This document shows positions 1 through 8,524 of a stretch of 9,188 nt of DNA, piece after piece. Every line of letters begins with the position of its first letter. Position 1 is the first letter of the stretch. The notes beneath the pieces are model-generated. The model was given only the letters and a program-made list of their open reading frames with translations. It was not told the DNA's origin and did no database searches. The position numbers and the translations under genes are program-made. The stretch is from Euryarchaeota archaeon UBA33 (lineage in GTDB: Archaea > Thermoplasmatota > E2 > DHVEG-1), in the NCBI GenBank assembly GCA_002506745.1, contig DAYE01000087.1, positions 13,064 through 22,251 on the forward strand. The letters run 5' to 3'.

Positions 1-662
1 CCGATATGGATCGCTGGTACATTGACTTGATCCCATTTATCCTCCAATGAGACATTCGTCCAATAGTCCATCGTGTAGTTCTCATGAGCCCACAACTCAG
101 GAAGGATGTCGGTGCTCCCTTGAGCTTTTAGCCACTCCTCGACAAGGTTCTTTCTGAATTCTCCACCAGGGTACATCGCATGTTTGTACATATCGGGTGT
201 GGCGACCTGGATGTATTGGCATGCAAGCTGTGAGGGATTTGCTCCTGCGGTCATGTATTGAGTGATTCCTAATGCAGACCCACCAAAGGTCGCAACCTTC
301 CCATTTGACCATGTTTGATCTGCCAACCAAGCAAGGGTATCAGGACCATCGGTATGATCGCTTTTAAACACAGTATCGTTCCCTTCTGATGCAAACCTTC
401 CCCGCATATCCTGGACTACGGTAGGCCAACCGCTCTGCGCCCAGTTCATCCCAAGAAGAACCAGTGCGTCTTTATTATACGGTGTTCTGATTAGAATTGC
501 GCCATGCTCCTGACTCTGTGTTTTTATATAGACATCAGTAGCAAGGTGAACATTATCTCGCATCGGAACCATATACTGTTTTGGCGTCACACAGCCAGCG
601 AGTAATAATGAAAAGAAAAGAATACATAACATCACTCCACCAACGAATTTCTTATTCTTCAT
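1..662 (-). CDS. CocE/NonD (S15-type) alpha/beta hydrolase lipoprotein, 3' part cut off by window edge
   Basis: Reading the minus strand from the ATG at 662 gives about 220 open codons running off the left edge. Residues 1-24 form a lipoprotein signal peptide: Lys-rich start, hydrophobic core, lipobox LLLAGC with Cys24, so the enzyme is probably anchored outside the membrane. The mature part follows the X-Pro dipeptidyl-peptidase/cocaine-esterase pattern: MRDNVHLATDVY near 34-45, VVQDMRGRFASEG near 82-94, then DGPDTLAWLADQTWSNGKV and the nucleophile motif GGSALG with Ser129 (family usual GxSYxG). The catalytic Asp and His and the C-terminal beta-sandwich lie outside the window. Such enzymes hydrolyse acyl-Pro peptides, esters or amides; the substrate cannot be read here. 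A GGGAT sequence lies about 7 bases before the ATG. Family call is firm, substrate unknown. Confidence 0.88.
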   Translation of the reverse strand, partial: MKNKKFVGGVMLCILFFSLLLAGCVTPKQYMVPMRDNVHLATDVYIKTQSQEHGAILIRTPYNKDALVLLGMNWAQSGWPTVVQDMRGRFASEGNDTVFKSDHTDGPDTLAWLADQTWSNGKVATFGGSALGITQYMTAGANPSQLACQYIQVATPDMYKHAMYPGGEFRKNLVEEWLKAQGSTDILPELWAHENYTMDYWTNVSLEDKWDQVNVPAIHI

Positions 663-691
663 AACAGTATCCCTATAAACCATTATGTCAA

Positions 692-1111: not shown

Positions 1112-1888
1112 ATGCATAAGACAAAAACAGAGCTTCTTGAATTAATCGCTGACATCAAACCAAAAAAGGAATTTGAAAAAGAAATCAACAGACAATATAA
1201 GTTCTATGACGAACTTATTGATAAGGACACCATCGCGTACTTACTTGTTGATCAGCTCGGCAGGAACACCCATAGCATTACAAAAATCGCTGAACTAGCT
1301 CCGAATGGGGATTATACCGTTGTCGGCAGAGTCATGAGTTTCTCGGATTCAAAGACATTTAAAAGGAAAAATGGTTCCCCCGGAAAAGTCATCAACCTAG
1401 AGATAACGGATGAAACGGGAACCTGTCAGCTTGTCCTTTGGAACGGGGATACCAACTCAATAAAAAACAAGGAGATCAAGCAGGGGACCTTGATTAAGAT
1501 CATCAATGGGTACACCAAGACAGGGTACACCGGTGGTATGGAAATTCATCTTGGTCGTTGGGGACTTCTTAAAGTTGAACCGACAGATGCGTCATCACAG
1601 TCGCAACAACGAAAGAATCTTTGTGATGAAATCTCTGGTGTTTTAGTACTCAAAGAACCAACCAAGGCGTTCTTCAAAGATGATGGCGAGTTCGGTTTTA
1701 TCACGACAATTACGATGAAGGAACACAACATAAAAAAAGAACTGATCCTCTGGGATGGGAATGTCAAAGACATCCAAACTTGTCATATCGGGGATTCGAT
1801 CACTCTGAAAAATGTCACGAAAAAATGGTGCAACGGTAAAACAGAGTTCCATGTCATGCAGAATGGTTCAGTCGAGAAACGCAAATAA
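1112..1888 (+). CDS. RPA-like single-stranded DNA-binding protein (two OB folds)
   Basis: This 258-residue protein matches archaeal replication protein A. Residues 1-52 form the helical N-terminal region typical of euryarchaeal RPA1 (KTELLELIADIKP, then DTIAYLLVDQLGRN). OB fold 1 spans about 66-157: YTVVGRVMSFSDSKTF, then VINLEITDETGTCQLVLW and HLGRWGLLKVE. A Ser/Gln linker follows. OB fold 2 spans about 172-255, with a second strand pair ending ELILWDG. There is no zinc-finger Cys cluster, so it is shorter than the longest archaeal RPAs. It should coat single-stranded DNA in replication, repair and recombination; any partner subunit is outside the window. It appears to be transcribed alone, flanked by two small basic-protein genes on the same strand. 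The start fits the family N-terminus. Confidence 0.85.
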   Translation: MHKTKTELLELIADIKPKKEFEKEINRQYKFYDELIDKDTIAYLLVDQLGRNTHSITKIAELAPNGDYTVVGRVMSFSDSKTFKRKNGSPGKVINLEITDETGTCQLVLWNGDTNSIKNKEIKQGTLIKIINGYTKTGYTGGMEIHLGRWGLLKVEPTDASSQSQQRKNLCDEISGVLVLKEPTKAFFKDDGEFGFITTITMKEHNIKKELILWDGNVKDIQTCHIGDSITLKNVTKKWCNGKTEFHVMQNGSVEKRK

Positions 1889-1958: not shown

Positions 1959-2114
1959 ATGCGGCCGCATTACCAACAGCCCCGTGATAAGCAATATTTT
2001 CATACAAAACCGAAAATCGATAAACGAGACATGGCAGCGCTGAAGAGAAAAGCTTTATTAATCCAGCGGAAAAAGCATATCGTTCGTTATGAGGAACGTT
2101 TCATCAGAGGCTAG
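1959..2114 (+). CDS. Small basic hypothetical protein, 51 residues
   Basis: I do not recognise this protein. The in-frame ATG at 1932 is less likely than the one at 1959, which has a full Shine-Dalgarno AAGGAGG ending 10 bases before it and lies at the right distance from the TATA box at 1911-1920. The 51-residue product is strongly basic (many Lys and Arg), starts with a polar Gln/His/Tyr-rich part and ends in a probable amphipathic helix (DMAALKRKALLIQRKK and on, residues 25-40). There is no membrane segment or Cys motif. This composition fits a nucleic-acid or ribosome-associated protein, which is inference only. Its TAG stop overlaps the stop of the opposite-strand DUF4346-like gene within CTAG at 2111-2114. 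Confidence 0.6.
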   Translation: MRPHYQQPRDKQYFHTKPKIDKRDMAALKRKALLIQRKKHIVRYEERFIRG

Positions 2115-2437
2115 CATCCACCCTGGATATACTTCTTTTGTTGTTCAAACGCGAGCTGTGCCTTTTGCAACTCACGACCAAGGTACAGGTAATGCTCTGG
2201 GCGCAGGCTGGGAACATGAACGGCTATCGTATCTGACAACGCATCAGCCTTGATTCCTGTAAAAGCCTTCTGAAGAACACCTGAGACAATTTGTTTGTTT
2301 TTATACACATTGGAATAGTACTCGACGCGGATGCTTTTGTTATCGACTTCGATGATAAAAAAACCCTGAGGGTCCAGGATGACGTCTTTTTCTATTGTTT
2401 TTTTTGCTTTAATTAAAGGAATTTCTCTATCCACCAT
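2111..2437 (-). CDS. DUF4346-like small protein, last gene of the mtrA-mtrH-metE cluster
   Basis: This 108-residue protein begins at the ATG at 2437, which has AGGAGAGG six bases upstream; the in-frame ATG at 2461 has no such site. It overlaps the end of the core metE gene by 11 bases, so the two are translationally coupled. The pattern DPQGFFIIEVD, then a short strand-rich middle and a C-terminal HYLYLGRELQKAQLAFEQQKKY resembles DUF4346 as I remember it: D-x-x-G-F-F-I then H-x-x-Y-L-G-R-E-L-x-K-A. That domain is known to me mainly next to pterin-binding (MtrH/DHPS-like) proteins. Here it stands alone beside mtrH, mtrA and metE, suggesting a role in methyl transfer, perhaps as a subunit or adaptor. 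The family call is from memory and the function is unknown. Confidence 0.65.
   Translation of the reverse strand: MVDREIPLIKAKKTIEKDVILDPQGFFIIEVDNKSIRVEYYSNVYKNKQIVSGVLQKAFTGIKADALSDTIAVHVPSLRPEHYLYLGRELQKAQLAFEQQKKYIQGGC
2116..2138 (+). terminator. Possible weak terminator inside the convergent gene
   Basis: ATCCA-CCC-TGGAT forms a 5-base stem directly after the plus-strand stop and is followed by a T-rich stretch (ACTTCTTTTGTTG). It would end plus-strand transcription inside the last codons of the minus-strand gene. The stem is short, so this is tentative. Confidence 0.25.
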
Positions 2438-3326
2438 TGAGAACCTCTCCTGCAGCTGCAAGGTTTTTTAATTTTTGGAACGCGATGTCTCGCGGGAGCA
2501 GCCGCTGTCCACAATCAGGCGCGATTTGAACAACATTTCCATCAAAGATTGCGATTGCTTTTTTGACATGGGTTACAATTTCTTCAACAGATTCAATGGT
2601 AACGTCATCAGATCGAACCGCTCCCACGCATATTTTTTTCCTATCGGGGTATTCTCGGAAAACATCGAACAGATGAGGGGTGGCTTTGAACTCATGGGAG
2701 AGGATGTCAACGGGCATGTCGATGAGCTGAGGAATAATCCGAGATACGTCGCCGCAGACATGCAGGCGCGTCGGGTGAGATAACCCATTGGTTATCATCT
2801 TGATGAGCTCATATGCGTACTCTGGTATTTCATTGGAAAAGACTGGTTCATCGATGCTGATGAAATCAACGTGTTTTAAGAGAATCTCTAATTCTTTTCG
2901 AAGTGCCTTAGCAAAATCAAAGGCTAATTCTTTTTCATCATGATAGAACGAATCAACACAGGATTTCGTAAGGGTATACGGGCCTGTGAGTACTCCGATG
3001 AGCCTGACATGTCTGGGGAGGAGGCGTTTCGCATAGATTTGATCTGGTACGGTGATAGGAGTATGATATTCGATGCGTCCGATGATCTCTGTTCTTTCTC
3101 TGATCCTACATCCTTTCAATTTTCTTGTGAATAACTGGATGAACGGATCCCGGGTCTGGCCATCTGACACATAATCGATGCCTGCCGTTGTCATGTCATG
3201 GACTGCTTGTTCAATATACTGCGTCCAGGACATCTGCTGTTCAGCAAAATAATCGTTCATCATGTCCTGGGTATTTATGGAGATTGGATAGGATCCGATG
3301 ACGCTGGTGTGTATCTTCTGCGTCAT
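2427..3326 (-). CDS. metE: Core (folate-domain-free) cobalamin-type methionine synthase, MetE family
   Basis: The 299-residue protein is a single UROD/MetE-type TIM barrel, the C-terminal half of bacterial MetE without its N-terminal folate-binding half. It should transfer a methyl group from a corrinoid to homocysteine, giving methionine. Zinc ligands expected from E. coli MetE (His641, Cys643, Glu665, Cys726) are all present: His189 and Cys191 in LHVCGD, Glu212 in SHEF, Cys272 in APDCGQRLLP. Also visible are the N-terminal TSVIGSYP, SDGQTRDP near 54-61 and SIDEP at 157-161. The true start is the ATG at 3326, in an ATGA overlap with the mtrH stop, with GGAGG 11 bases upstream; an upstream in-frame ATG at 3413 would add 29 unrelated residues. 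Archaeal core MetE proteins take methylcobalamin in vitro. The neighbouring mtrA suggests that MtrA is the donor. Confidence 0.88.
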   Translation of the reverse strand: MTQKIHTSVIGSYPISINTQDMMNDYFAEQQMSWTQYIEQAVHDMTTAGIDYVSDGQTRDPFIQLFTRKLKGCRIRERTEIIGRIEYHTPITVPDQIYAKRLLPRHVRLIGVLTGPYTLTKSCVDSFYHDEKELAFDFAKALRKELEILLKHVDFISIDEPVFSNEIPEYAYELIKMITNGLSHPTRLHVCGDVSRIIPQLIDMPVDILSHEFKATPHLFDVFREYPDRKKICVGAVRSDDVTIESVEEIVTHVKKAIAIFDGNVVQIAPDCGQRLLPRDIAFQKLKNLAAAGEVLNGG

Positions 3327-4225
3327 TTCAGCAGTTTCCTCCGGGGATGTGATGCGGTAGGGTTGATTCCGAAATAATTCTCGGTGTACTCGGAGACAAG
3401 GATATCCTGCCATGCTATAAGGGGAACAACAAGTTCTGCGTTTTCTATTGGACCGAACAGCGCATAGTCGCCTCCAAAGAGAGGGATGGTATTATTGGAA
3501 CAGACATCCACTGTTTTTTTTGCGAAGGGAAAATCGTTTAACCATCGTGATTTCTCAACTACGTTATGAATCGCACACCCAGTTGGGAGACCATATTCTT
3601 CCTTAATCACTGGGAGAGCAGCGATAGCAGCACCACTGTTCTCGCCAGGGGAGAGAGCAGCAGTATCGATTAGGAGTTTTTCAATTCCTATATGCCGAGC
3701 TGTTTCAAGAAGACCCGCTTCCATAAGATGCGCACCATTCTCCAACACCTCGATTTTTCCATCGGGGGATCTATCTTTTGGATTAAATGCGACAATGATT
3801 GCTGCTTCAGGGGTATATGTTCCTAATGCTTCGTTCTCCTCCTTTGTCATCCCGATATGTATGGAGTTGTAAATTGTCCGTGGGAGTAGTTTTCTGCTGG
3901 CAAGCTGTTCCAATGTCTCTATCTTTAGTGAGGGTTCGATGATATCAATGGAGAAGGGGTGTTTCTTGGGGATTACTTTTTCTATAAATGAGAGAATCGG
4001 CTCGATATAGTCGACTTTTTTAATGAAAAAATCAGGGATAACGGGAACACCGGTTTGCTTGCTGAGATCATAGAGTGTTTGAAGGTGTCGTTTTGCATCG
4101 TCAAAATCTGGTTCCCCTTTGAAGAACAGTCCACCGAAAAGAACTGTTGGATACATTCCTGGCTGTCCACCGATGGATATTCCTGAGATGTCGAATACCT
4201 TTTGTTCTTTGGTAAACGAAAACAT
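3323..4225 (-). CDS. mtrH: MtrH-like methyl-tetrahydropterin:corrinoid methyltransferase
   Basis: The 300-residue protein is close in length to methanogen MtrH and begins with the family signature: FDISGISIGGQPGMYPTVLFG, then a TIM-barrel pattern with DIIEPS, AAIIVAFNP, LLIDTAALSPG and GCAIHNVVEKSRWL. MtrH moves the methyl group of methyl-tetrahydromethanopterin to the cob(I)amide of MtrA. In this operon the donor could be the methanopterin or another tetrahydropterin; the sequence does not decide. Its ATG follows the mtrA stop directly (TAAATG), with AGAGG 7 bases upstream inside mtrA, and its own stop overlaps the metE start, so all three are translationally coupled. No mtrB-G genes are present here, so this is not the complete sodium-pumping complex of methanogens as far as the window shows. 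Confidence 0.9.
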   Translation of the reverse strand: MFSFTKEQKVFDISGISIGGQPGMYPTVLFGGLFFKGEPDFDDAKRHLQTLYDLSKQTGVPVIPDFFIKKVDYIEPILSFIEKVIPKKHPFSIDIIEPSLKIETLEQLASRKLLPRTIYNSIHIGMTKEENEALGTYTPEAAIIVAFNPKDRSPDGKIEVLENGAHLMEAGLLETARHIGIEKLLIDTAALSPGENSGAAIAALPVIKEEYGLPTGCAIHNVVEKSRWLNDFPFAKKTVDVCSNNTIPLFGGDYALFGPIENAELVVPLIAWQDILVSEYTENYFGINPTASHPRRKLLK

Positions 4226-4795
4226 TTATGCGCCTCTTTTTTTTATTTTTCCTAAATAATCGATGAGAATCCTTGAATGTAACGCGCGATTGTCCGTGAG
4301 GTTAACGGTGGCCTGCGGTTTCAATCGTATCGCGATGTATGGTTCTCCAAAAACTGGTGGGGTTTTGCGTATGCATTCAGCGATGACTGCATCGATTTTT
4401 TCTTTTTGTTTTTCCCCGATTAAATCGATCACGTTTAGTTGTGCTTGAAATCTTTTTATTGCCTCTTCCTTTAAGTTTTCGATATAAGGGATTGCTCCAG
4501 GAGCATGGATGATTCGATGGTTGTGGTCTATCCCGTTTTTATGTAACGCGATCAAGGAGGACCCTGAACGGTGTCCCCTGATATCATCCCCGCAGAGAAC
4601 AAGAAAACGGACCCAGGGGTTTGAGATTGTGTTTGCTATGATTTTTTCTATCCCTATGTTCTCTGTTTTTAATGACCCATAGATTGCGACACTCTTAGGA
4701 GGGTTGTATTGTATGTTAAGCAGCGCGACAGCGACGCATCCTTGTGGTTCACATGCGGTGAATTCACCGCCCCAGGGGTAGTAGTCATCGGTCAT
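4226..4795 (-). CDS. mtrA: MtrA-like corrinoid protein, soluble form without membrane anchor
   Basis: This 189-residue protein matches the corrinoid-binding domain of MtrA: GSLKTENIGIEKIIANTISNP near 40-60, then FLVLCGDDIRGHRSGSSL with His75, then NGID and APGAIPYIENL. His75 aligns, by my recollection of the M. marburgensis protein, with His84, the axial cobalt ligand. Methanogen MtrA is about 240 residues with a C-terminal transmembrane helix; here the protein ends in a charged tail (GKIKKRGA) and no membrane segment is present. It is therefore probably a cytoplasmic methyl carrier that accepts the methyl from MtrH and gives it to the core MetE. A weak AAGGCAGG lies upstream of the ATG at 4795. 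An alternative role would be another corrinoid-linked pathway, but the metE neighbour argues for methionine synthesis. Confidence 0.88.
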   Translation of the reverse strand: MTDDYYPWGGEFTACEPQGCVAVALLNIQYNPPKSVAIYGSLKTENIGIEKIIANTISNPWVRFLVLCGDDIRGHRSGSSLIALHKNGIDHNHRIIHAPGAIPYIENLKEEAIKRFQAQLNVIDLIGEKQKEKIDAVIAECIRKTPPVFGEPYIAIRLKPQATVNLTDNRALHSRILIDYLGKIKKRGA

Positions 4796-4839: not shown

Positions 4840-5487
4840 TTAAGCTGTCGGAGAGACGCGGTAGACATCAAGGTCCTCTCCGTTATATCGATGGGAGGCG
4901 ATAATATGGGCTGATAATCGTTCATTTTTCAGATAGTGCTCTAGTGTTGATCGATTCGATAAGGAACTAAAGATAAAATATGCACATCCTTTGGGTTCAA
5001 GATGTTTGTGAAGTCCCTGGAGAAATTTCTTAGTGACTTTCAGACCAGTCGGTCCTCCGTCTGTTGCTGTATCGAACCATTCATTGATTTTCTCGTTTTT
5101 TTTCGTAGGAAGGTACGGTGGATTAAAAAGAATTACTGTGAAACGTTCATTGTTTTTCAGCACTGAAAAGAGGTTGCCTTGTCGTATTTCAATATCGCCT
5201 TTGAGAAGAAGTCGGTTTCGTTCGATGTTATGACGGGTGAGTTGAATTGCGTATGGGTTGATGTCTGTACAGACCACCTGGGCGCCATGATGAGCACATG
5301 CCAAAGCAATAAGGCCGCATCCAGTACCAAGTTCTAATATCGAATCTTTTGGATCAATGATGATGTTTTCGAGCAGCCAGAAGGAATCCTCAGCAGGGTC
5401 GTACACCTCAGGATGTAGTTCAATGGTTAGCTCGTTATAATGAAACAATGGAGGAGTTGCAGAGGGTGTTTTTTTCAAGGGTCGCAT
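4840..5487 (-). CDS. HemK2/Mtq2-type glutamine methyltransferase (release factor aRF1)
   Basis: The 215-residue protein carries the class I SAM-methyltransferase fold and the N5-glutamine methyltransferase signature. Visible are VYDPAEDSFWLLE (29-40), motif I ELGTGCG (52-58), the acidic residue in CTDINPYA (73-80) and the catalytic NPPY (122-125, in LFNPPYLPT). Archaeal and eukaryotic HemK2/Mtq2 proteins (N6AMT1 homologues) methylate the Gln of the GGQ motif in release factor a/eRF1; some also have been reported to modify other targets. The length fits the family. The ATG at 5487 is the only good start and lies about 30 bases after a TATA box, so the mRNA is probably nearly leaderless. It is the first gene of the minus-strand cluster, 44 bases before mtrA; it uses the SAM whose methyl group the downstream genes help to make. 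Confidence 0.88.
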   Translation of the reverse strand: MRPLKKTPSATPPLFHYNELTIELHPEVYDPAEDSFWLLENIIIDPKDSILELGTGCGLIALACAHHGAQVVCTDINPYAIQLTRHNIERNRLLLKGDIEIRQGNLFSVLKNNERFTVILFNPPYLPTKKNEKINEWFDTATDGGPTGLKVTKKFLQGLHKHLEPKGCAYFIFSSLSNRSTLEHYLKNERLSAHIIASHRYNGEDLDVYRVSPTA

Positions 5488-6688: not shown

Positions 6689-8524
6689 ATGAAAAACGAA
6701 GACCCTGAAATCATAAAAACATTACGACAAGAGGAACGACTCGGAAAATTACATGCTCATTCTCCTGGAAAACATACAATCGTCATACCAAAGGAACTAG
6801 AAGAAGAACCCATTGACTCGATTTTCACTATTTTACGACATCGGAAGGATGAGGATATCGAAACCATTGATCTTGGCGACCCTATCCAAAAATATCGGAT
6901 CATTTTTGATAATTCCGCTCTCGCCATCATGCTGACTGATGAGAACGAACGGATAGTCCACTGGAATAAATACACAGAAAAACTCCTGAGGATGAGCAGA
7001 GAAGATCTCATAATGAGACCAGTCAAATATCTCTACCCGCAAGAAGAATGGAAGAAAATACGATCAGAAAACATCAGGCAGAAAGGCATCCAGTATCATA
7101 TGGAGACAAAAATGATACGCAACGACAACGAACTGATCGATGTCGATATCTCCCTTAGTGTACTAAAAGACCACATCGGTAACGTCATCGGTTCGATTGG
7201 AATTGTAAAAGACAACTCACAGAATAAACAGATGGAAAAAGCGTTACGAACATCTGAAGAAAAATTCAAACAACTCTATGAAAAAGCACCGATTCCTTAC
7301 CATACGTTATCACCAGCGGGGACGATTACCGATGTGAACGAAAAATGGTGCAAATTGTTTGGGTATACGAAAGAAGAGGTCATTGGAAACCCTATTTTTG
7401 ATTATATCCATGGAGATGAACAAGAGATTGCAAAATCATCTTTTAAGGAAAAAATCAATAGTAAAAAAGCCTATACTGATGGTCATGAGCGAACCTTTAT
7501 CACAAAAAACGGTGAACCACGCGTGTTCCTCATTCATGATTTCCTTAGTTTTAATGAGACTGGTGGCATGCTCTCCGTCTTTTCTACTATGGAGGATGTC
7601 ACAGGACGGAAAAAAATTGAAGAAGAACTCCATAAAGCCCACTATTGGTTAGGAAAAAATGTCCAAGAACGCACTGTTGATCTTTCAAAAGAAAACCTGG
7701 TATTAAAAAAGAGAAACAATGAATATAAACGCGCCATCGGTGAACTTCATATCCAGCTTGAGAAAATTCAGAAAGCACAGAAAAAGATTGAGCAGCAGAA
7801 CGCTCGGCTGAAAAAACTTGATCATATCAAATCGAATTTCCTGAATGTCACCTCACATGAACTACGAACGTCAATGGCGACCATTAAAGGGTATGTCGAG
7901 ATAATTCTTATGAAAAGCCTTGGTCCCATCACCGAAGAGCAAAGAAAGGGTCTCGATGTGATTTTAACAAACACAGATCGGTTGGATCAACTTATCCAGG
8001 ATACTCTTGATGTCTCCCGACTTGAGTCGGGTACCATGAAATTCATCCCGGAGAAAACAGATATTGGACGATTAATCCAGAACGCGACAGGGACAATACA
8101 ATCCGCTGCAGATTTCAAGCAAATAAAAATCATTAAAGAAATAGAGGAAGAAATCCCAGAACTGAATATCGATCAGGAACGCATCAAACAAGTGCTTGTC
8201 AACCTCCTGCAGAATGCCATTAGTGTTTCACCGGAGGGGTCGAAAATCTCTGTTAAAGTGAATAAAGAACCTGAAGAGGTCTTATTTGAAATACAAGATT
8301 TCGGCCAGGGGATACCAAAGAACAAACAGAAGAAGATTTTTGATATCGTGTATCAAATTGATTCTGGTATCGATGATCTTGGGTTTACCATTGCTCGTGG
8401 TGTTGTGCTCGCCCATGGCGGAAAAATATGGGTTGATAGTGAACAGGGTCACGGGAGTACCTTCCGATTCACCTTACCGATAACACCAATACAAGATCAG
8501 GATGGAAAAAATCAAAAAAGTTGA
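6689..8524 (+). CDS. Soluble PAS-PAS sensor histidine kinase
   Basis: The 611-residue protein has no membrane segment, so it senses a cytoplasmic signal. Order: Glu-rich N-terminus (1-60), PAS 1 (about 65-180, with ALAIMLTDENERIVHWN), PAS 2 (about 187-310, with ITDVNEKWCKLFGYTKEEVIG), a long coiled coil (312-380), the HisKA dimerisation domain with H-box TSHELRTSM and phospho-acceptor His390, then the HATPase domain with N-box NLLQNA (Asn505, Asn509), G1 DFGQG (537-541), F-box KIFD and a C-terminal AHGGKIWVDSEQGHGSTFRFTLP. Two features are unusual: the H-box lacks the usual Pro after HELRT, and the G2 box reads DDLGFTIAR instead of GTGLGL. AGAGG six bases before the ATG supports the start. 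No response regulator gene is visible; the cation transporter gene starts 26 bases later. Confidence 0.92.
   Translation: MKNEDPEIIKTLRQEERLGKLHAHSPGKHTIVIPKELEEEPIDSIFTILRHRKDEDIETIDLGDPIQKYRIIFDNSALAIMLTDENERIVHWNKYTEKLLRMSREDLIMRPVKYLYPQEEWKKIRSENIRQKGIQYHMETKMIRNDNELIDVDISLSVLKDHIGNVIGSIGIVKDNSQNKQMEKALRTSEEKFKQLYEKAPIPYHTLSPAGTITDVNEKWCKLFGYTKEEVIGNPIFDYIHGDEQEIAKSSFKEKINSKKAYTDGHERTFITKNGEPRVFLIHDFLSFNETGGMLSVFSTMEDVTGRKKIEEELHKAHYWLGKNVQERTVDLSKENLVLKKRNNEYKRAIGELHIQLEKIQKAQKKIEQQNARLKKLDHIKSNFLNVTSHELRTSMATIKGYVEIILMKSLGPITEEQRKGLDVILTNTDRLDQLIQDTLDVSRLESGTMKFIPEKTDIGRLIQNATGTIQSAADFKQIKIIKEIEEEIPELNIDQERIKQVLVNLLQNAISVSPEGSKISVKVNKEPEEVLFEIQDFGQGIPKNKQKKIFDIVYQIDSGIDDLGFTIARGVVLAHGGKIWVDSEQGHGSTFRFTLPITPIQDQDGKNQKS

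Follow-up and report, generated by a model that had tools for sequence, protein, structure and literature searches.

A conserved mtrA-mtrH-metE-DUF4346 block in Thermoplasmatota and its probable role as a B12-type relay for methionine synthesis

Gene layout and proteins of the block

From a 9,188-nucleotide stretch of contig DAYE01000087.1 (Euryarchaeota archaeon UBA33, Thermoplasmatota; the whole stretch is called the window in the following), a minus-strand block of four genes in the order mtrA-mtrH-core metE-DUF4346 can be deduced at positions 2111-4795, which probably encodes a dedicated methionine-making relay via a B12-type carrier. All four genes, as proposed in a first-pass annotation of the sequence, are confirmed by Pfam matches that each exceed the curated cut-off. 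The host assembly comprises 1.68 Mb in 121 contigs and is 73% complete.

4226..4795, minus strand: mtrA-type corrinoid protein, predicted soluble, 189 amino acids (aa); PF04208, 163.7 bits; matches to MtrA of PDB 5laa and 8q3v
3323..4225, minus strand: mtrH-type methyl-pterin:corrinoid methyltransferase, 300 aa; PF02007, 187.4 bits
2427..3326, minus strand: core methionine synthase, MesA-like, catalytic domain only, 299 aa; PF01717, 101 bits; NF002119, alignment and tree
2111..2437, minus strand: stand-alone DUF4346 protein (PF14251, PterinBD-DUF4346), 108 aa; PF14251, 72.5 bits

The genes are tightly coupled, with the mtrH start at the very next base after the mtrA stop, an ATGA overlap of the mtrH stop and the metE start, and 11 bases shared between the metE end and the DUF4346 start. 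The metE start is most likely the ATG at 3326 rather than the upstream ATG of the longest open reading frame (ORF), and DUF4346 most likely starts with the ATG at 2437, since a stop lies shortly before this position in the relatives L033, L038 and L042.

The MtrA-type protein looks like a soluble form, as already supposed in the first pass, because no hydrophobic segment is present in its 189 aa (highest 19-residue Kyte-Doolittle mean of 0.92); a C-terminal membrane anchor, as of the Na+-pumping Mtr complex, was not found on it. His75 and Glu45 are spaced like His84 and Glu54, which ligate the cobalt in MtrA of methanogens, G74-H75 is invariant across 11 aligned sequences, and the stretch GAIPYIEN is near the published MtrA consensus (ligands and consensus as given in the accessible part of Wagner 2016, PMC4915002). 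Being shorter than 215 aa, of soluble appearance and with the cobalt-ligating His kept, the protein has the characteristics of a cytoplasmic MtrA homologue. Motifs of the [RK]GH and TEN type are found in 41 of 42 MtrA copies. Among PDB chains, MtrH (9qtp) and a methylcorrinoid:tetrahydrofolate methyltransferase (6sj8) come closest to the MtrH-type protein, aligning with it over almost the full length.

The third gene encodes the MetE catalytic domain alone (a 299-aa PF01717 protein), without the folate-binding domain. The homocysteine residues Ser (GSYP), Gln (DGQT) and Asp (IDEP) are present, as are the zinc-ligand residues His and Cys (LHVCGD), Glu (SHEF) and Cys (PDCG), and all of them are invariant in eight aligned synthases (roles according to the accessible text of PMC7857596). 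Among 49 archaeal loci retrieved with metE patterns, DGQT, DEP and PDCG occur at all 49, GS[YFL]P and the Glu-Phe motif at 48 each and the strict LH.CGD at 42.

These residues bear on an alternative in which the zinc enzyme acts on a thiol other than homocysteine, for example coenzyme M or a small thiol of the cell, so that the block would be left over, in soluble form, from methyl-thiol metabolism. Weak likeness to methylcobamide:CoM methyltransferases (NF040654, 27.8 bits versus a cut-off of 400; with the profile of the alignment, PDB 4ay7 at 1.8e-07) points in this direction, and in the available portion of a paper on Asgard archaea (PMC11291895), coenzyme M is among the acceptors considered possible where MtrA/MtrH are soluble. 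Nevertheless, the Ser, Gln and Asp holding the amino and carboxyl groups of homocysteine are kept, as in MesA and MesC. Moreover, in 19 genomes sampled from the window's family (10 of them at least 90% complete), McrA was not found (0/19) and a second candidate methionine synthase was not detected in 18, rendering a thiol other than homocysteine quite improbable as acceptor.

The window synthase matches NF002119, which we take to be the model for MesA, with 236.8 bits, below the equivalog cut-off of 258. The published line for MesA is a phmmer score of at least 174 bits to METE_METTM (PMC7857596, in the part accessible); with proxy queries in place of METE_METTM, and with scores matched to queries by the script order of result blocks, two Methanothermobacter proxies give 146.8 and 154.8 bits for the window synthase, and Methanocaldococcus jannaschii gives 174.9 bits. 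With the first Methanothermobacter proxy, 13 of the 24 block synthases of the tree described below attain 174 bits, while split-type proteins score 54.2 bits at most.

The tree was built from 37 hand-chosen rows of 73 profile-matching ORFs plus 13 of 120 listed proteins and is midpoint-rooted for drawing; L069, MesB, MesC, MesD and crenarchaeal split MetE are outside this selection. In it, the 24 block synthases together with L055 form one clade (support of 100/99), which groups with 13 MesA-type rows, seven of them named as from methanogens. Hence, assigning the synthase to one of the Mes groups by tree, as suggested at the outset, leads to MesA within a tree that does not contain MesB, MesC and MesD. 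A branch with 100/100 support separates the block synthases and the MesA group from ten split-MetE-type proteins. L102 and L127 (genome G005) are long-branched MesA-like proteins, and no MtrA is present in their genomes. The label "MesA proper" was rejected for the window synthase, as the NF002119 cut-off is missed, the proxy scores lie on both sides of the 174-bit line and the host is not a methanogen, and "MesA-like" is used here. Occurrence only in methanogens, stated for MesA in the accessible sections of PMC7857596, does not apply to the window's family, in whose 19 sampled genomes McrA was not found.

For the DUF4346 protein, three strands and two helices are predicted (mean predicted local distance difference test value of the model of 80, with low confidence for the first 17 residues). 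Weak matches to the C-terminal parts of NF002128, an MtrA model (5.5e-05), and of TIGR00284 (6.4e-10) tie it to MtrA and pterin-type proteins. Database proteins of like length matching the family number 2656. A Cys at the C-terminus is found in 32 of 42 readable relatives; its consideration as a universal ligand was dropped in view of the ten exceptions, every one from lineages outside the window's family. A solved relative was not retrieved at E≤0.001, weak matches at 0.08-0.85 looking like chance, and a literature search did not return a paper under the name DUF4346. A role as a small MtrA partner helping docking or reactivation is conceivable.

Conservation and genomic neighbourhood

MtrA is present in 25 of 145 genomes of the phylum, and the order mtrA-mtrH-metE-DUF4346 is found at 19 of 26 MtrA-seeded loci, 16 of them from the window's family and one each from three other families. 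Considering only genomes without McrA, the order is conserved at 19 of 21 MtrA-seeded loci, and none of the 19 block-bearing genomes is among the McrA-positive ones. Five of the remaining seven loci belong to four McrA-positive genomes (G062, G083, G087 and G137) and have no linked metE; L049, L050, L051 and L053 from these genomes are mtrA-mtrH pairs with a longer MtrA (252-255 aa). The other two are mtrA alone in G010 and a contig of G027 stopping within mtrH.

A scan of genome contigs with patterns from the metE alignment gave 56 loci, of which seven bacterial ones (L103-L109, 22-28% matches) were excluded. The 49 archaeal loci are titled as Thermoplasmata/Thermoplasmatota lineages, Euryarchaeota, uncultured archaeon and, in one case, Methanomassiliicoccales. 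The scan uses short patterns and is thus not exhaustive, with the window's own genome perhaps left out; as the MtrA- and metE-seeded sets overlap (L030 and L054, for instance, come from one contig), their counts were not summed. The complete block in order is found at 41 of the 49 loci, four lack a readable mtrA (contig edge in three cases, unreadable bases in one) and one ends before DUF4346. Identity of metE goes down to 35% among the aligned block copies. Single-contig genomes of the window's family bearing the block are G108 (89% complete) and G126 (83% complete).

Common ancestry of the region does not suffice to explain why the four genes stay together, because the neighbouring genes are not seen outside the family while the block stays: the gene for an RPA-like protein accompanies the block at 15 of 16 family loci and a HemK-like gene lies beside mtrA at 8 of 16, and both are absent from all 11 four-gene loci of other lineages, where the contigs of L054 and L087 are too short on one side. 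Local synteny as the entire cause of the conservation was therefore rejected. In the window, the RPA-like OB-fold protein (1112-1888, plus strand) faces the block's end, and a gene for a HemK2/MTQ2-type protein methyltransferase (4840-5487, likewise on the minus strand) precedes mtrA at a distance of 44 bases. Co-transcription of the latter with mtrA is possible; as part of the block it was rejected, being beside mtrA in only half of the family loci.

The window further encodes a histidine kinase with two PAS domains (6689-8524, plus strand), with the gene of a cation efflux transporter directly behind it (from 8521), and a Peptidase S15 (X-Pro dipeptidyl-peptidase; 3-683, minus strand), which is likely exported, judged from an N-terminus that by eye is lipobox-like.

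Methyl supply, alternative routes and the proposed relay

A methylenetetrahydrofolate reductase (MTHFR) is encoded in 19/19 family genomes. In the window's own genome, its gene adjoins a MetV-type gene (PF12225) on a contig other than that of the block. In other archaea of the phylum, MTHFR is found immediately upstream of mtrA and in the same orientation, namely in L058, L061, L062, L064 and L070, with a second type in L060. In L087, a seventh gene is truncated by the end of the contig; with this partial case included, the arrangement is seen at 7 of the 49 metE-seeded loci. Three Pfam-confirmed examples are:

L061, 2277-3230, same strand as mtrA: MTHFR gene upstream of mtrA
L058, 589-1536, same strand as mtrA: MTHFR gene upstream of mtrA
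L060, 2783-3712, same strand as mtrA: MTHFR gene of the second type upstream of mtrA

The two types are only 24-27% identical, and the L060 enzyme is 56% identical to the MetF of the window's genome. As two unlike enzymes occupy the same position, a feed of methyl-pterin into the block is the natural reading of this placement.

MtrH-type transfer is reversible in principle, and MtrA and MtrH might instead serve a catabolic purpose by bringing methyl groups from methylated compounds into the pterin pool, metE being adjacent by chance. Other soluble mtrAH pairs have been read in this way, as reported for Nitrososphaeria and suggested for Bathyarchaeia (PMC8407382, accessible part). Against such a use, a substrate methyltransferase gene was not seen within the block, corrinoid proteins with PF02607 were found in 0/19 family genomes, metE is within the block at nearly all MtrA-seeded loci of McrA-free genomes (19/21), and MTHFR is placed upstream at six loci plus the one at a contig edge. 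Catabolic methyl uptake is accordingly considered quite unlikely.

Within the family, MtrA is found in 16 of 19 genomes and is the sole methyl-corrinoid protein among the three families searched. PF01717 likewise occurs in 16 of 19, with one copy each which is always that of the block. Full metE, the N-terminal half of split metE and MetH were not found in these 19 genomes; specifically, the MetE N-domain/folate domain PF08267, the iron-sulfur corrinoid protein (CFeSP; CdhD/CdhE, PF03599) and the MetH-type B12 domain PF02607 were each detected in 0/19. Thus, neither of the findings named beforehand as speaking against a dedicated relay, a full metE or metH combined with a cluster not conserved elsewhere or a normal methanogen complex, was encountered. 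Concerning the latter, the first-pass statement that other Mtr subunits are missing holds for MtrE (PF04206), which was detected in 0/19 family and 0/145 phylum genomes with positive controls in M. jannaschii and Methanosarcina acetivorans; among MtrB to MtrG, the search covered MtrE alone. For the window's family, CFeSP, the donor suggested for MesB and MesC, was thus discarded as source of the methyl group, and so was the full Mtr complex, here on MtrE alone.

The lack of PF08267 also concerns the idea that the block encodes one half, the catalytic one, of a split MetE that draws directly on methyl-folate, in which case mtrAH would supply a different acceptor. Pairs of split type are present in other sampled Thermoplasmatota genomes, and MesA is said to resemble the catalytic halves of split MetE (PMC7857596, in its accessible text). 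With the N-terminal partner domain found in 0/19 family genomes, and with the ten sampled split-type proteins lying beyond the 100/100 branch of a tree that does not include crenarchaeal split MetE, split MetE was rejected for the family and is very improbable as an explanation of the block.

Each of the three alternatives, i.e., methylation of another thiol, catabolic uptake and split MetE, is less likely than a dedicated methionine-making relay via a B12-type carrier, for which we estimate a probability of about 0.8 on the basis of sequence comparisons. In this relay, MetF, joined by MetV in the genome of the window, would make the methyl-pterin, presumably methyl-tetrahydrofolate. MtrH would move the methyl group to cob(I)alamin on the soluble MtrA. 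The MesA-like zinc barrel would then transfer it from there to zinc-bound homocysteine, and DUF4346 might aid docking or reactivation of MtrA. Each methyl-transfer step is predicted, and this is the most economical reading. The donor role of an MtrA-type protein charged by MtrH, predicted in the first pass from gene order, gains support from the conserved order and from the absence, in the sampled family genomes, of the other donors and synthases looked for. A turn of the Mtr module from energy conservation to biosynthesis, as proposed in the first pass, would presuppose a direction of evolution and is more than these data carry.

Several observations weigh against this reading. As the window's own genome is only 73% complete, the absences rest on relatives. 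CobS was found in 0/19 family genomes, therefore the cobamide would need to be salvaged, which we infer to be the case. The model for B12-type ribonucleotide reductase is above cut-off in only 10/19, comprising the own genome, its six relatives of the same genus within the sample and three further family genomes (control: 7/14 genomes above cut-off); the match in the own genome is a sign of cobamide use there. At three of the 49 metE-seeded loci (L055, L069 and L102), metE is without mtrAH in the stretch read, and in G010, the genome of L055, mtrA is on a different contig with no mtrH beside it. In L061, an opposite-strand ORF lies between mtrH and metE. G005 and G017, the latter carrying CFeSP, have a MesA-like synthase but no MtrA, therefore the pairing is not obligatory. 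The homocysteine methyltransferase domain PF02574 in one of the 19 family genomes (G044, a 308-aa open frame) and in G018 outside the family indicates a possible second route. In the family genomes G123, G132 and G135, neither MtrA nor PF01717 was found while MTHFR is kept, and the block may truly be lost in G132, since this genome is a single contig. The McrA counts apply to the family and to the MtrA-seeded loci; the metE-seeded set comprises named genomes outside this coverage, one of them titled Methanomassiliicoccales archaeon (L057). Finally, a PDB fold search with the DUF4346 model gave no structural match at E≤0.001.

Relation to known systems

Two questions meet at this locus, the methyl donor of MesA-type synthases and the job of detached MtrA/MtrH in archaea without methane metabolism. 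The block joins a proposed donor, its charging enzyme, the acceptor enzyme and, in some lineages, MTHFR upstream. If true, the relay would probably give detached MtrA/MtrH a function in biosynthesis. The presence of mtrA and mtrH in a genome is no sign of methane metabolism. Besides, the MesA-like clade extends beyond methanogens, and the uncharacterised DUF4346 family gains a concrete context.

For methanogens, MtrA has already been predicted as donor of MesA, which was reported only from these organisms (PMC7857596, 2021, accessible part). Hence, the contrast to published donors drawn in the first-pass annotation was incomplete, as the window synthase groups with MesA. The single MetE catalytic domain, the zinc and homocysteine residues, the predicted MtrA donor and the tree grouping are shared with MesA, whereas the block sits in genomes without McrA or MtrE and is gene-linked to soluble mtrAH. 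In the part available of a further paper (PMC7005905, 2020), Schroder and Thauer are cited as proposing MTH124 or MTH1156 (MtrH) as candidates.

For the cytoplasmic MtrA homologues described by Wagner 2016 (PMC4915002), a methyl acceptor is not assigned in the accessible text, whereas the block points to homocysteine. At a locus of Ca. Methanomethylicus mesodigestum (PMC7886697, 2021), a corrinoid protein-mtrH pair is likewise co-localised with a metE homolog and an anabolic option is mentioned; in the sections available, however, the corrinoid protein is treated with methylamine-type (MtbB/MttB) systems and not as MtrA, and DUF4346 does not appear. MtrA-like proteins, MtrH and an MtrAH fusion of Asgard archaea also show that non-methanogens can have MtrA/H while lacking the full complex, although the methyl fate is called uncertain there and the word methionine does not occur in the accessible text (PMC11291895, 2024). 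The same holds for methionine in the available part of Adam 2022 (PMC9635834), where mtrAH without the full complex is discussed, while nonmethanogen mtrA and mtrH homologs are considered in PMC4632066, as far as accessible, to probably serve novel methyl transfers. A paper describing such a block in Thermoplasmatota was not found in a literature search whose coverage mostly excluded subscription papers and preprints.

The block can also be compared with the cobalamin-dependent enzyme MetH. In the latter, the methyl group passes from methyl-pterin to cobalamin and on to homocysteine, and the block would follow the same logic, with three to four separate proteins of the Mtr and MetE families instead of one MetH chain (PF02607 in 0/19 and PF02574 in 1/19 family genomes). 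In effect, the block would be a split B12-dependent methionine synthase, in which MtrH takes the place of the pterin domain of MetH, MtrA that of the B12 domain and the MetE-type barrel that of the homocysteine domain. It is doubtful, though conceivable, that this amounts to a third methionine synthase architecture, a four-protein split B12 enzyme with DUF4346 as an essential reactivation part, and that the soluble module is perhaps older than, and the source of, the sodium-pumping Mtr complex of methanogens.

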